Positions 37,262 to 49,850 of a DNA stretch of 50,804 nucleotides are shown here, in pieces. The notes under the pieces were generated by a model that had not been told where the DNA came from, ran no database searches, and saw nothing but the letters and a program-made list of their open reading frames with translations. Source of the stretch: Candidatus Woesebacteria bacterium GW2011_GWB1_33_38 (GTDB lineage: Bacteria > Patescibacteriota > Microgenomatia > UBA8517); contig LBPF01000005.1 in the NCBI GenBank assembly GCA_000990005.1, positions 1-50,804 of the forward strand. The letters run 5' to 3'. Each line of letters begins with the position of its first letter. Position 1 is the stretch's first letter. The position numbers and the translations under genes are program-made.

Positions 37262-37539
37262 TCTAGTATTGCATCTACAACAAAATAACCATTATGAACT
37301 CTCTTCGCATTTTTCAAGGCATCTTCTTGACTCAAAATCCTGTTAGTATCAATTGCATCTTCTCTTGTTACATTTTTTAAATTTGTAGAGTTTGAAGTTC
37401 CTTTTATGTCTTTCAAATTTAATTCTTGGATTTTAGAAACAAGTTTGACAATCGAGTCAAATTCATCTGAAAATTTTTTTAAATGCTTAGGTAATATCTC
37501 AATCTTGGCTAATTTTGCAATTTTTTTCACATCAGTCAT
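37258..37539 (-). CDS. gatC: Asp/Glu-tRNA amidotransferase subunit C
   Basis: GatC is a 93-aa assembly factor for GatAB. The start VKKIAKLAKIEILPKHLKKFSDEFDSIVKLVSKIQEL is the helical belt of the family, and the C-terminal RVHNGYFVVDAILE wraps GatA. The middle, LKDIKGTSNSTNLKNVTREDAIDTN, corresponds to the variable P-x-R-xD region. Four-base overlaps with dinD upstream and gatA downstream indicate coupling. Confidence 0.93.
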   Translation of the reverse strand: MTDVKKIAKLAKIEILPKHLKKFSDEFDSIVKLVSKIQELNLKDIKGTSNSTNLKNVTREDAIDTNRILSQEDALKNAKRVHNGYFVVDAILE

Positions 37540-38333
37540 TTGAGTAATTTTTTCCTTTCAATTTTAATCTTTTTAATATCTCCCTCAATTGGCAAATCTT
37601 CAGGCATTGTACCACCGATTTCTTGAATTGTTTTTCTCACTTTTTGACCTACAACCATATGTGCAAATGTCGCATGCCCTTCACCTTTTATTTTTTCATT
37701 TCTGATTTTATCATCAGCTTGAGTAATCCTAAATAAATTTGCGGCAAGTTCAGTTGCACCTGCTCTATCCAAAACATCGTCTTTTCCAATTCCTTTTTTC
37801 TTTTGCAATGTTTTTTTGTGCATTCCATACAGGCCTAAATAGCCGGCATCGTGGAATTTTCCAAAATTTTTAACACCAGCACTTTGCGCGGTTGAATTTA
37901 ATTCTTTGTTATGAACTTTGATCTTTCCACGGAGAAACAATCTTTGTTCCGTTTCTTTTAATCCTTGGAATATCTCTTGTTTTCTGGTTTGTATTGCAAA
38001 ATAAGTTTGAGCAGAAGCTATGATTTTTTTAGAAGAATCTCCGTTTTGAGTTATTAAATAACATGCGTATCTAGACAATCGATAATCTTTTACTTCTCGT
38101 TTTGCGCCTGACCCAACAATAACCATATTATTGACATCAATAAAATGGTATTGGATCGTCTGATTGCTCTTTTTACATGCAATTTTTGCTTTTTCAATCA
38201 CTTTTTCAAAATTTTGCCAGTTTGAATAATCTATTAGACTCATCAATTCACGAGCGAGCCAATATTCAACACCATTTTCGTCAATTTTCTTGATTTCTTC
38301 AAAGTGTTTACTTGGAGATTTGAACTGGATCAT
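37536..38333 (-). CDS. dinD: DNA damage-inducible protein D (DinD-like)
   Basis: DinD in E. coli is an SOS-induced protein that inhibits RecA filament activity. This 265-aa protein matches in the Bro-N-like half (EYWLARELMSLIDYSNWQNFEKVIEKAKIAC, DYRLSRYACYLITQNGDSSKKIIASAQTYFAIQTRKQE) and the C-terminal DinD half (AGYLGLYGMHKKTLQKKKGIGKDDVLDRAGATELAANLFRITQ). It overlaps gatC by 4 bp, so DNA-damage and translation genes share a transcript. TATTAT lies 6 nt before the ATG, giving a leaderless promoter in an 18-bp gap; no obvious LexA box there. Confidence 0.92.
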   Translation of the reverse strand: MIQFKSPSKHFEEIKKIDENGVEYWLARELMSLIDYSNWQNFEKVIEKAKIACKKSNQTIQYHFIDVNNMVIVGSGAKREVKDYRLSRYACYLITQNGDSSKKIIASAQTYFAIQTRKQEIFQGLKETEQRLFLRGKIKVHNKELNSTAQSAGVKNFGKFHDAGYLGLYGMHKKTLQKKKGIGKDDVLDRAGATELAANLFRITQADDKIRNEKIKGEGHATFAHMVVGQKVRKTIQEIGGTMPEDLPIEGDIKKIKIERKKLLK

Positions 38334-43194: not shown

Positions 43195-43882
43195 TTATTT
43201 ATCCCGTGTTTTAGGCATTTTATGACTTAGAAGTTTCTTTACTTCACGATCAAAATCTGAGATATAGTTTTTGTATTTATCTTTTCTATATTTTTTATAT
43301 TCTTTGTACTGCAAAGTGCATTTTATTTTGAACAGTAGCAAAAAACTTATGTGTTAACTCTGTATCAACTTTATAATCAATACTAGTAGCATAGATATCA
43401 GTAACTTTTTGGTAAAACATTCGTTCACTACTTCTAATGTCTCTGACTCTTTGTAAGAGTTCCTGAAAGTATCTTGCACGGCCACCGCCCTGTTTAAGTC
43501 GTTCATCATCCATAGTAAAACCTTTTATCAAGTATTCTCTAAGTCTTTCTGTTGCCCGTTTACGAAATTGGGTTCCCTGTTCAGACCGAACCCGATAACC
43601 AACAGCTAAAATAGCCTCTAAATTATAATGTTTTATACTTCGTGAAACTGATCGTTCTTTTTCCATGCGAAGTATCCGGAAATTCCGGATAGTTGATTTT
43701 GTATCTAATTCCTTTTCGATAAATACGTTGATTAAATGCTCGTTAATTGTACGAATGTCAACTTGATATAACTCAGAAATTTGTTTTTGTGTTAACCAAA
43801 CATTTTCATTTTCAATTCGAACATAGATTTTCTGATTATTATCAATACTTTTGTAAATTGCTATTTTATTATTCATTTTCAT
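43195..43882 (-). pseudogene. rhuM: RhuM-family protein with internal deletion
   Basis: The 195-aa frame matches the RhuM family: VWLTQKQISELYQVDIRTINEHLINVFIEKELD, SIKHYNLEAILAVGYRVRSEQGTQFRKRATERLREYLIKGF and KFFATVQNKMHFAV. Instead of continuing HGHTAAE it changes to QRI and stops. In the next frame the DNA continues EYKKYRKDKYKNYISDFDREVKKLLSHKMPK to a TAA at 43195, which looks like the C-terminal end of the same family. So about 100-130 residues are missing, probably through a GCAGTACA direct repeat. RhuM function is unclear; it is accessory and often found in islands. Confidence 0.75.
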
Positions 43883-46460: not shown

Positions 46461-46658
46461 TCATTCCTCAACTATTATCTTTTTGCTTTTCAATTTGTAA
46501 TCAGCATATATCTTAGCAATTTTAAATAAAGATTGTGTAATAGTGCCTTCTGGTTTAGGCAATAGTCCAAGATAATTGTAAATATTAGTGTCACTTTGTT
46601 TTAATTCTTCTTCTGTTAGGCCCGATTCAATTACTACTTTTTCTTTGTTTTTACACAT
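46461..46658 (-). CDS. Small hypothetical protein, 65 aa
   Basis: This soluble, Lys/Glu-rich frame begins MCKNKEKVVIESGLTEEELKQSDTNIYNYLGLLPKPEG. Protein-like composition and a clean start make it plausible. It converges on the oxidoreductase with a 1-bp gap and is divergent from the winged-helix gene at 46730. No recognised family and no motif. Confidence 0.5.
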   Translation of the reverse strand: MCKNKEKVVIESGLTEEELKQSDTNIYNYLGLLPKPEGTITQSLFKIAKIYADYKLKSKKIIVEE

Positions 46659-46694
46659 ATATGGCGATATATTAATACTTTATTGATTTGTTTC

Positions 46695-46723
46695 TTGATT
46701 TATATCTGATTTTTTGATATACT
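46695..46723 (+). promoter_or_regulatory. Promoter of the winged-helix/methyltransferase-like gene
   Basis: TTGATT (46695-46700), 17-nt spacer, TATACT (46718-46723), then 6 nt to the ATG at 46730. Same leaderless geometry as lexA. Confidence 0.7.
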
Positions 46724-46729
46724 ATAGGC

Positions 46730-47629
46730 ATGAATAATTTAGTCCTAACTAAATCAGAGCAAAAGACATTCGATTTACTGCTTCAAAAATCAGATTTGGT
46801 AGTTAATCGTGATGAAATAGCTCAGGCTGTGTGGGGTGAAAATTGGCTTTCTAAGTATTCAGATTGGCAAATTGATAGACTTATATATCTACTTAGAAAT
46901 AAATTGCCTTCTAATTATAAAATTAAAACCTTGAGAAATAGTGGATACATACTTTCTAACTCAGATGTGATCATTCCGCAAACAAAGATAAATATAGTTG
47001 AAGGTACTCTTCCAACCCACGAATATCTTGAATATATGAATAACACAAAAAACAAACGTAAAGTATTAAAAGATTTGTTTAAAAGCATTAAATTAAACCG
47101 ACAATACAAAAATGTGTTAGTTATTAATTCATATTCGTTTGATAATGTTGCTAGTGTAAATAAAAACTTACCCAAAACTTCGGTTTTTTTTTCTAACTTT
47201 GACAGTAGGGCATTAAAGCTACATCAGAATGAAATTGAAAAACTAAAATTAAATAAATTCTCAACAGTTTTGGATGATATTAGAGATTCTGTCTTTAAAG
47301 ATAAATTATTTGATTTAGTAATTAACGACTTTAGGTTGAATTTTAATACCAGCAATGATCAAAACGTTAAAACTATGCAAAACATATTTAGAATTATAAA
47401 AAATAATGGTCAAGTCATAATCTCAGTTGTTATTGACCCAAGAAATAAATCAACTAGAAGTGCGCCATGGAAATTTAGGGCAGAAGAAAACTTAACTAGA
47501 CTTTGCTACACACCACGATACTATGGAAATTTGTTTAAGAAAACAGGTTTTAAAATATTAAAAGAATTTGATCAGAAAAATGGAAGTAAATGGAACCTTC
47601 CATACAAAAGGTATCTTCTGACGAAATGA
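46730..47629 (+). CDS. Winged-helix DNA-binding domain fused to a methyltransferase-like domain
   Basis: This 299-aa protein starts with an OmpR/PhoB-type winged helix at about 1-75 (LTKSEQKTFDLLLQKSDLVVNRDEIAQAVWGENWLSKYSDWQIDRLIYLLRNKL, IKTLRNSGYIL) but has no receiver domain. After a linker, residues about 120-299 look like a class I SAM methyltransferase: a strand-loop NVLVINSYSF in place of motif I, LFDLVINDFRLNF as motif IV, IIKNNGQVIISVV as the strand after the post-IV helix, and YYGNLFKKTGFKILKEF as the typical end. The glycine motif is degenerate, so SAM binding is uncertain. Monocistronic with its own promoter. Confidence 0.7.
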   Translation: MNNLVLTKSEQKTFDLLLQKSDLVVNRDEIAQAVWGENWLSKYSDWQIDRLIYLLRNKLPSNYKIKTLRNSGYILSNSDVIIPQTKINIVEGTLPTHEYLEYMNNTKNKRKVLKDLFKSIKLNRQYKNVLVINSYSFDNVASVNKNLPKTSVFFSNFDSRALKLHQNEIEKLKLNKFSTVLDDIRDSVFKDKLFDLVINDFRLNFNTSNDQNVKTMQNIFRIIKNNGQVIISVVIDPRNKSTRSAPWKFRAEENLTRLCYTPRYYGNLFKKTGFKILKEFDQKNGSKWNLPYKRYLLTK

Positions 47630-47644
47630 TATAATTACCCTTAC

Positions 47645-47715
47645 GCTGGTGTAGCTCAACGGTAGAGCAGTGGTATCGTAAACCATCGATGGCAGTTCAA
47701 TTCTTCCCACCAGCT
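47645..47715 (+). tRNA. tRNA-Thr(CGT)
   Basis: 71-nt cloverleaf: acceptor GCTGGTG/CACCAGC, anticodon stem GTGGT/ACCAT, loop ATCGTAA with CGT, T arm GGCAG/CTTCC with one C-U mismatch, discriminator T, no CCA. Its last base overlaps the stop codon of the histidine kinase on the other strand. Confidence 0.88.
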
Positions 47716-49085
47716 CACTTCACTCGTTGATAGATTGGTAATATTACTTTCACAGTAGTTCCTTTATTTAATAGGCTTTCAATCTTTATCTCTCCACCTT
47801 GGGTCTTTATAATTCCTTGGGTTATAGCTAAACCTAATCCCGAACCTAGTATTTTAGCTGTTTTTAAGCCTCTGTAAGCTGAGCTTGAAGGGGCTCTGCC
47901 CCTATAAAATCTTTCAAAAACATGAGATAAATCTTTTTTAGAAATACCTACACCTTCATCAGTAATCAATATGACAGCATTTTTATTCAATTGTTTTAAT
48001 CTTATTAAAACGGATTTGTGACTAGGGGTGTATTTAATTGCATTATCAATTAAATTTAAAACTGCTCGACTAATTTTGCTTTCGTCACCATATATTTTTA
48101 TATTTTTGCTAACATCAACTTTTACATCAACTTCTTTTTGTAAACCAAGTTTAAAAGCTATTTCTGAAAGTTCACTAATTGTATCTGACAAATCAAACCT
48201 TTTGTTATTAATCGTATTTTTAGACATGCTGATCCAGGCAAGATCGAGAAGATTACTAACTAGCTTTGAAATCCTATCTGTATCTATTAACGTTTCTTTT
48301 AACGTGCTTTTATACTCCAATTTTGATCTATCTTTAGATAAAGAAATTTCTATTCCACTTTTTAATGTCGCAATCGGTGTTTTAAGTTCATGTGCGATGT
48401 CTTCGATAAATTGCCTCTCTCTTTTAAAAGACTGGTGTAATCTATCTAACAAATTATTAAAAGTTAATGAAAGTTTTTCTATTTCATCTCCTGATTTGGG
48501 ATTAGATAACCTGATGTCAAGATTTTCTGTTGTGATATCATCCATTTTATTAATTATCAATGAAATTGGTTTAATAATCCGCTGAGTAAATAATATTGCA
48601 CCAAAAATTATAGGTAATATAAAGATAACAAAGATAATAATTAAAGTAGACATTAATGAATTTAAAGATTTTTGTATTGCTTCGATTGGATGAGCAACCA
48701 AAAGTACCTCAATTAATTTATTGTCAACCCATGTAGGCTTTATTAAAAATCTCATAGGTGTAGTGCCCATGTTTTGATTAATAAAAGTAATCGATCTATT
48801 TTTTTGCGCTATTTTAAACAAATTATTATAAACAATAGATGAAGCATTCAAATCGATTGAACTCTTGGTTACATTTCCATTCTGATCAAGAAGTATTGTT
48901 ACCATACCAGAGACATCATTAAACTGATCTAAGTTATGGGTGTGAAGCGATAAGTTTTTGTCTACTTCTTGGTAAATAATTTTATCCGTTACGGTATAAA
49001 AACTTGCAAAAATAACGCTTATTGCAACAATTAAAATTGAACTAAAAAGAATAATTATTTTAAAGCGGATACTCTTTGTATTCAT
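47715..49085 (-). CDS. Sensor histidine kinase
   Basis: This 456-aa kinase has two membrane helices (about 8-28 and 145-168) around a periplasmic/extracellular sensor of about 115 residues, HAMP (RIIKPISLIINKMDDIT), H-box FIEDIAHELKTPIATLKSG with phospho-His, N-box ISRAVLNLIDNAIKYTP, G1 ITDEGVGISKKDLSHVFERFYRG and G2 GSGLGLAITQGI. Between G1 and G2 the lid GRAPSSSAYRGLKTAKIL is about seven residues longer than usual and includes an AGGGGC/GCCCCT palindrome (47889-47903). Overlaps the response regulator by 4 bp. Signal unknown; neighbours suggest metal or envelope stress. Confidence 0.94.
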   Translation of the reverse strand: MNTKSIRFKIIILFSSILIVAISVIFASFYTVTDKIIYQEVDKNLSLHTHNLDQFNDVSGMVTILLDQNGNVTKSSIDLNASSIVYNNLFKIAQKNRSITFINQNMGTTPMRFLIKPTWVDNKLIEVLLVAHPIEAIQKSLNSLMSTLIIIFVIFILPIIFGAILFTQRIIKPISLIINKMDDITTENLDIRLSNPKSGDEIEKLSLTFNNLLDRLHQSFKRERQFIEDIAHELKTPIATLKSGIEISLSKDRSKLEYKSTLKETLIDTDRISKLVSNLLDLAWISMSKNTINNKRFDLSDTISELSEIAFKLGLQKEVDVKVDVSKNIKIYGDESKISRAVLNLIDNAIKYTPSHKSVLIRLKQLNKNAVILITDEGVGISKKDLSHVFERFYRGRAPSSSAYRGLKTAKILGSGLGLAITQGIIKTQGGEIKIESLLNKGTTVKVILPIYQRVK

Positions 49086-49744
49086 ATGATATATCCAACT
49101 CCGTGAACAGTTTTAATTAATTTATTTTCATATCCGCTATTTATCTTTTTTCGCAGTGTTACAACCAACACATCGACAATGTTACTCATTACATCAAAAT
49201 TATAATCCCAAACGTGCTCAATTATTTTGGTTCTTGTTGTAACCTCTCCCTCACTTCTCATTAAAAGTTCCAAAATTGCAAATTCTTTAGGTGTTAATTT
49301 AATTTGTTTTTTCTCCCTAGTTACAACATGACTGAGTGGATTTAAAATCAAGCCTTGAACCTTTAACACAGGAGATGGATTTTGATGGCTTCTTCTTATT
49401 AGCGCATGTACTCTAGATTTAAGTTCTACAAATGAAAATGGCTTGGTTATGTAATCATCAGCTCCGCTATCCAAACCTGTTATTTTATCCTCTGTAGTAG
49501 ATTTTGCTGTAAGAATTATTATTGGAGTTTTGTTTCCTTTTTTTCTTAAATTCTTGCATATCTCAATACCATTAATTTTGGGTAACATTAAATCGAGAAT
49601 TATTAAGTCATAGCTTTCACTGCCTGCTAAATATTGACCTTCTTCACCGTCATACGCCTGATCAACAGCAAAACCACCCTCAACTAATCCTTTTTTAATA
49701 ATATCGTTTAGTCTTATCTCATCCTCAATAATTAATAATCTCAT
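49082..49744 (-). CDS. OmpR-family response regulator
   Basis: I start at MRLLIIEDEIRLNDII (49744), because TATACT ends 6 nt before it; the track's upstream nine residues overlap the promoter. The 220-aa protein has the receiver with acidic pair EDE, phospho-Asp in LIILDLMLPKINGIEI, conserved Thr/Lys (ILTAKS, ITKPFSFVEL), and the winged-helix output (LTPKEFAILELLMRSEGEVTTRTKIIEHVW, VVTLRKKINSGYENKLIKTVHGVGYII). It is the partner of the kinase (4-bp overlap). CusR/CopR-like architecture. Confidence 0.95.
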   Translation of the reverse strand: MRLLIIEDEIRLNDIIKKGLVEGGFAVDQAYDGEEGQYLAGSESYDLIILDLMLPKINGIEICKNLRKKGNKTPIIILTAKSTTEDKITGLDSGADDYITKPFSFVELKSRVHALIRRSHQNPSPVLKVQGLILNPLSHVVTREKKQIKLTPKEFAILELLMRSEGEVTTRTKIIEHVWDYNFDVMSNIVDVLVVTLRKKINSGYENKLIKTVHGVGYII

Positions 49745-49850
49745 AAGTGAAGTATACTTACTACCATCCATTTAATATACGGTCATAAACACGATATGGC
49801 TTTGGTCCAACTAATCCTTTTTTGAAGAGAATAAATACCCTATCCTTCGT

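Follow-up and report, generated by a model that had tools for sequence, protein, structure and literature searches.

The gene at 46730..47629 (forward strand) of the window, by which we mean the whole 50,804-nucleotide stretch of DNA analysed here, is a single open reading frame with an ATG start, and encodes a 299-residue protein wherein an OmpR/PhoB-type winged helix (wHTH) is joined to a class I methyltransferase-like domain. We consider it probable that this protein is a one-component autoregulator in which the methyltransferase-like half has replaced an ATPase, with its pocket rebuilt for a ligand not bound in the style of SAM, and that it serves as an autorepressor. This reading draws on the fusion and its fold, on a pocket that is both replaced and conserved, on purifying selection, and on a conserved operator that is common to the ATPase-wHTH family, all of which were obtained by computation. 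The regulator comes from a candidate phyla radiation bacterium with a tiny genome, and the source genome of the window is nearly complete (845 kb).

A winged helix and a methyltransferase-like domain form one protein

A preliminary description of this DNA had proposed an OmpR-type winged helix fused to a methyltransferase-like domain and lacking a receiver, and each of these points is borne out. Residues 4-75 (46739..46954, forward strand) match the Pfam profile Trans_reg_C (PF00486) with E=5.1e-11 and 42.9 bits against a curated cut-off of 26.2, and the structural model gives this region its helices and wing hairpin. The recognition helix spans residues 45-58 (46862-46903, forward strand) and the wing residues 62-76 (46913-46957, forward strand), assignments that rest on the model and on conserved residues in both elements. 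In Pfam, the wHTH is matched by Trans_reg_C alone, with no match to the ArsR/HTH_5 profile. No receiver domain is matched by Pfam anywhere in the 299-residue protein, and merely three residues precede the wHTH match. With the wHTH at residues 4-75 of 299, an ATPase-like part is also absent from the window protein.

The second half of the protein, residues 97-299 (47018..47626, forward strand), adopts a Rossmann-type fold according to structure prediction and fold searching. Several Pfam Methyltransf profiles match residues ~140-278 with E=8e-5 to 8e-4, slightly under their cut-offs, and a sequence search of the PDB returned response-regulator helices only and no methyltransferase. An AlphaFold model built with an alignment of eight family members (pLDDT 82.6) has the strand and helix order of class I enzymes, and Foldseek matched it to hundreds of SAM methyltransferases with TM scores of about 0.6-0.7 by target length and E-values down to 2.4e-10 against the PDB. 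Model and Foldseek together place the domain in the seven-stranded Rossmann-like fold of class I methyltransferases, and profile-profile comparison with canonical methyltransferases from related genomes is in agreement (P=96.9, E=1.4e-10). A second fold search, conducted with the longer family member L051, was likewise dominated by methyltransferases and was uninformative on the N-terminal relic of that protein, which is described below. The winged helix and the methyltransferase-like half are one genuine fusion protein.

A small family under purifying selection

The same architecture is found elsewhere, and in none of the relatives are the two halves encoded by separate genes. Among eight distinct family members, all from Microgenomates relatives, the wHTH precedes the methyltransferase-like part in every case. 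Methyltransf_25 is matched in all eight (best 5e-9) and Trans_reg_C in seven (best 7e-17), the eighth member, L053 (= L037), being truncated within the wHTH by a contig edge. The relatives that could be named are Shapiro-, Roizman- and Beckwithbacteria and another Microgenomates genome.

In a sample of the class, 4 of 374 genomes carry the fusion gene, and the genomes with the gene in this search belong to the same class as the window. The nearest genome is without it, and a full-length copy with 59% identity is present in a genome of another family within the class. A scan of 84,980 genomes with the single protein gave no match, and a four-member profile run against 84,980 species genomes recovered seven loci, some of which are in genomes already found earlier, such that the distinct total is the eight members given above. 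The search of viral contigs found no relatives, and thus there is no sign of a phage gene.

The two Shapirobacteria copies differ with dN of 0.14-0.15 and dS of 1.6-2.7, and dN is low in both halves of the protein. The resulting dN/dS values of 0.05 (NG86) and 0.09 (YN00) are approximate because dS is close to saturation. The family is under purifying selection.

A tandem repeat overlaps the predicted leaderless promoter

Upstream of the gene is a sigma-70-type promoter (46695..46723, forward strand) that consists of TTGATT (46695-46700) and TATACT (46718-46723) separated by 17 bp. The -10 element and the start codon at 46730 are separated by 6 bp, and the message would therefore be leaderless or nearly so. 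The promoter had initially been called strong. Judged by consensus alone it does not stand out, since 6 such sites were found where 7.1 were expected. It is nevertheless very probably real, because every one of the seven copies for which upstream DNA is available has kept it.

What had been missed is a conserved tandem operator within this promoter. The proposed site, TTGAT-N6-CTGAT (46695..46710, forward strand), is made of two YTGAY words 11 bp apart, overlaps the -35 element, and is conserved in 7/7 copies; both words end in T in the window and mostly in C elsewhere. Additional YTGAY words at 46683 and 46714 (forward strand) flank it. In every copy with upstream DNA (7/7) the layout is CTTGAY-N4-ATCTGAY, then the -10 element, then an ATG within about 5-10 bp, and the predicted operator TTGAYNNNNATCTGAY is present at all seven of these own promoters. 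The first word is the -35 hexamer itself and the second is not accounted for by sigma. Because of this coincidence, only the second word counts as free evidence within so small a family.

The effector domains of OmpR and PhoB bind head to tail to direct repeats (PMC3960148), and the 11-bp repeats conserved in all of the promoters, which are sites predicted from sequence, fit this tandem-repeat habit. The protein is like the OmpR/PhoB response regulators in the type of its DNA-binding domain and in its predicted operator of head-to-tail repeats one turn apart, but is unlike them in having no receiver and in carrying its wHTH at the N terminus, where theirs is C-terminal.

When the exact operator pattern was sought across the whole of genome G000, the single match was at the promoter of the regulator itself. 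In the other genomes that carry the gene, its promoter was matched every time, and all remaining exact matches were within open reading frames. In each genome, then, the exact site occurs in non-coding DNA at the regulator's own promoter only. A looser pattern that included the -10 element gave three other intergenic matches among eight genomes (L107 in G735, before a 261-aa open reading frame; L121; and L124), none of which is conserved. A regulon derived from the operator pattern, with or without the -10 element, was rejected for these eight genomes, as nearly all matches other than the self-promoter are inside open reading frames and are attributable to chance. With one exact site per genome, no regulon was found, a point that weighs against the autoregulator reading.

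On the far (left) side of the operator, each copy has a divergent open reading frame that starts roughly 25-40 bp away. In the window this frame encodes 65 aa (46461..46658, reverse strand), faces the regulator, and is a possible second gene under a shared promoter region. Elsewhere the divergent products are of 771 and then 675, 1025, 199, 305 and 111 aa, and the divergent frame of L048 looks broken. The corresponding loci are L049 (3444-7899), L052 (484-3561), L050 (1464-2063), L051 (6606-7523) and L090. We rejected these frames as a conserved partner, because they have no Pfam families and are non-homologous save for the 675-aa product of L049 and the 1025-aa product of L052, which are 29% identical over 500 aa. 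For the same reason, any pairing of regulator and target is uncertain. Two Shapirobacteria whose promoters are nearly identical still have unrelated divergent products. The operator may also control a second, divergent promoter, but this is uncertain.

The winged helix groups with those of ATPase-wHTH regulators

The likening of the DNA-binding half to a response-regulator output domain was correct as to its type but not as to its origin, which the tree places in a phylum-wide family of ATPase-wHTH proteins. Outside the family, the wHTH is best matched by a kind of protein common in the phylum, in which an ATPase-like N-terminal part precedes a C-terminal wHTH, and not by response regulators; the label “ATPase” rests on P-loop-like motifs read in these sequences, of which Pfam names only the wHTH. 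By sequence and by tree, these Patescibacteria regulators (L002, L007 and L009 among them, with L002 being a paralogue in the window's own genome) have the closest winged helices. In a tree of 58 winged helices, the regulator family is on the ATPase-wHTH side of a 97/93 split from the response-regulator side, and with 79 columns of wHTH only, this tree is insufficient to resolve whether the family is monophyletic. The adjacent response regulator of the window (49082-49771) was considered as the source of the winged helix and rejected, as it lies on the opposite side of the 97/93 branch and lacks a YTGAY array in its promoter.

Two members (L050 and L051) are longer at the N terminus by ~130 residues, and this extension matches the segment that comes ahead of the wHTH in ATPase-wHTH proteins (hhalign P=95.9, E=5.5e-9), which are also the top matches outside the family. 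The extension thus appears to be the relic of an ATPase-wHTH protein. ATPase-wHTH regulators have an ATPase-like part followed by a C-terminal wHTH, whereas the present family has no ATPase and a methyltransferase-like domain after the wHTH. A likely history is one wherein an ATPase-wHTH regulator lost its ATPase and gained the C-terminal methyltransferase-like domain within Microgenomates.

The operator is common to both groups. Upstream of ATPase-wHTH genes, YTGAY-N6-YTGAY with the exact 11-bp spacing is present in 11 of 43 cases, compared with a mean of 0.33 and a maximum of 3 in shuffles, and YTGAY spacings peak at 11, 22 and 33 bp. An unbiased scan for repeated 4-mers upstream of the same 43 genes ranked CTGA/TGAC at 11 and 22 bp first. 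At least two YTGAC words were found for 21/43 genes versus 1/43 on the opposite strand. Phased YTGAY arrays are located upstream of L055, L013, L019, L012, L010, L063, L026, L073, L068, L067 and L066. Given the OmpR/PhoB precedent, these 11-bp repeats suggest that the whole group, comprising the methyltransferase-like and the ATPase-wHTH regulators, most likely controls its own genes via YTGAY. The ATPase-wHTH proteins look like an undescribed autoregulated family that is widespread across Patescibacteria and has a readable operator, and its occurrence at many of their genes may make the whole regulator family predictable.

Two loci of one genome, L003 (688-1695) and L005 (1498-2571), encode proteins in which an OmpR-type wHTH comes last, after an unrelated N-terminal domain with no Pfam match. 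These are possibly further sensor swaps.

The SAM motif is replaced and the pocket is conserved

The methyltransferase-like half had been described as having a degenerate motif I. It does depart from the canonical form, but what stands in its place, NSxSxDN, is conserved and does not reflect random decay. In the profile alignment, VLVINSYSFDN is set on VLDAGCGPGVD and VFFSNFD on VIGVELS, such that NSYSFDN (residues 133-139; 47126..47146, forward strand) stands where GxGxG is expected. All eight members have [VI][VI]NSxSxDN in place of GxGxG and its preceding acid, with the three glycines and the acid replaced in each, and the ribose-binding acid that follows beta2 is N or H (position 156) in all eight. 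The domain is therefore like the class I SAM methyltransferases (Methyltransf_25/31/11) in fold, strand order and the motif III aspartate (D183), but unlike them in all three of these SAM-binding features.

Other positions are as strictly kept. N133, S134, S136, D138 and N139 are fixed in 8/8 members, as are D158, R160, D182-D183 and I198-N206, the last being the invariant INDFRLNFN block (residues 198-206; 47321..47347, forward strand) at the end of beta4, adjoining the expected ligand pocket. In the class I fold, the ligand sits at the C-terminal ends of strands 1-4. At these ends, with positions assigned by alignment and not from coordinates, 19/28 positions are invariant versus 34/188 elsewhere (p=2e-7), and 10/19 are invariant when the beta4 block is left out (p=0.0015). 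This indicates a kept ligand or substrate, which is probably bound in another way than SAM usually is. A rebuilt sensor pocket is more likely than a standard methyltransferase. Two points weigh against this reading: some active methyltransferases also have an atypical motif I, and the motif III aspartate D183 is retained.

One candidate for a canonical intermediate, L041 (1366-2043 of G149; motif SPGISTGG), was rejected, as it is in fact a rare separate methyltransferase. It has an unusual motif I, is similar to the regulator family by profile, and has just one other copy in 281 genomes.

Known regulators and alternative roles

Regulators that combine a wHTH with a methyltransferase are already known (ArsRM, SahR). 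What appears to be new, as judged from the sequences, is the OmpR-type helix, the ATPase-wHTH ancestry, an operator of tandem repeats and a SAM motif whose replacement is fixed. Our literature search found no paper on this regulator family or on such transcription factors in uncultured reduced-genome bacteria.

SAM had been suggested as the effector, and it is unlikely, if not negligibly so, that the protein still binds SAM or SAH by means of an unorthodox motif I and, like SahR with SAH, signals the cell's methylation state. The retained class I fold and D183 would suit such a role, and SahR and SamR have a methyltransferase-like C-terminal part. These two are ArsR-family regulators of the SAM cycle, with SahR responding to SAH (PMC4239095), and are one-component and autoregulating, as is predicted here. 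However, they use an ArsR-type wHTH and a 20-bp palindrome to control a regulon of ahcY, metK and metH, whereas no such targets were found here. The suggestion is weakened by the replacement of the motif I glycines and acid and of the acid after beta2 in every member, and among the genes closest to the regulator, in the window as in the relatives, we recognised none of the methionine or SAM cycle.

Nearly as well placed, and still improbable, is a pure scaffold, wherein a ligand-free methyltransferase-like domain dimerises the wHTH and protein concentration alone provides regulation by negative autoregulation. The degenerate SAM pocket and the one self-promoter site per genome fit this proposal, but the pocket residues are polar and the most conserved in the domain, which a scaffold would not need.

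We are more doubtful that the protein is a bifunctional enzyme and regulator, namely an active methyltransferase of small molecules, DNA, RNA or protein that binds its own promoter. The precedent is ArsRM of Brevundimonas sp. M20, an ArsR-methyltransferase fusion that binds its own promoter and methylates arsenite (PMC10190100), and its existence makes the initial claim of novelty too strong. Both proteins have an N-terminal winged helix and a C-terminal class I methyltransferase domain of ~200 aa in one chain, and the near-invariant residues around the pocket are enzyme-like. ArsRM, however, has an ArsR-type helix and a palindromic site in contrast to the OmpR-type helix and predicted tandem repeats here, and it retains the glycine-rich SAM motif and arsenite methylation where the SAM motif is replaced here. 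Moreover, no substrate pathway is recognisable nearby, and nothing positive favours the DNA-targeted methyltransferase that had also been proposed.

An ordinary enzyme whose winged helix serves solely for dimerisation, as in the O-methyltransferases DnrK, MfnG and Rv2258c, is very improbable, since although Foldseek aligned both halves to such enzymes (7ux8, 2r3s, 5f8e), its full-length alignments are at rmsd 17-19 A, the wHTH is OmpR-type with its recognition-helix and wing positions retained, and it comes from a regulator family and has a matching tandem predicted operator that is conserved.

A model for the autoregulator

In the autoregulator model that we favour, the N-terminal OmpR-type winged helix would bind two or more YTGAY words arranged head to tail at intervals of one helical turn. 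Autorepression is probable because the operator overlaps the -35 element; the predicted site lies between the regulator gene and the divergent frame, and binding there would most likely repress. The class I methyltransferase fold would be the sensing half, the dimerising half, or both. Its rebuilt pocket (NSxSxDN for GxGxG, N/H for the ribose acid, and INDFRLNFN) most likely holds a small-molecule ligand, whose binding would alter DNA binding. We thus infer that the protein binds DNA, represses rather than activates, senses a ligand and has lost methyl transfer.

A broader proposal, which we hold more tentatively, is that a transcription factor took over a methyltransferase fold to sense a non-SAM ligand through a strictly kept rebuilt pocket, and that this factor is part of an undescribed phylum-wide superfamily with phased YTGAY arrays at its own promoters and exchangeable sensors (ATPase, methyltransferase-like and others). 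The pocket is a concrete case of a catalytic fold possibly turning into a sensor. The predicted operator is exact, short and conserved, and DNA binding is hence testable with one protein and one oligonucleotide.

Genomic neighbourhood

A defence island around the regulator was considered and rejected, as the neighbourhood consists of housekeeping genes plus a BRO-N and a RhuM protein. The BRO-N protein (37536-38333) and the RhuM protein (43295-43882), which lie among these housekeeping genes, match the PADLOC candidate-defence models PDC-S13 and PDC-S05, respectively. A tRNA-Thr (CGT) gene at 47645-47716 of the window is on the same strand as the regulator and begins 15 bp past its stop codon.
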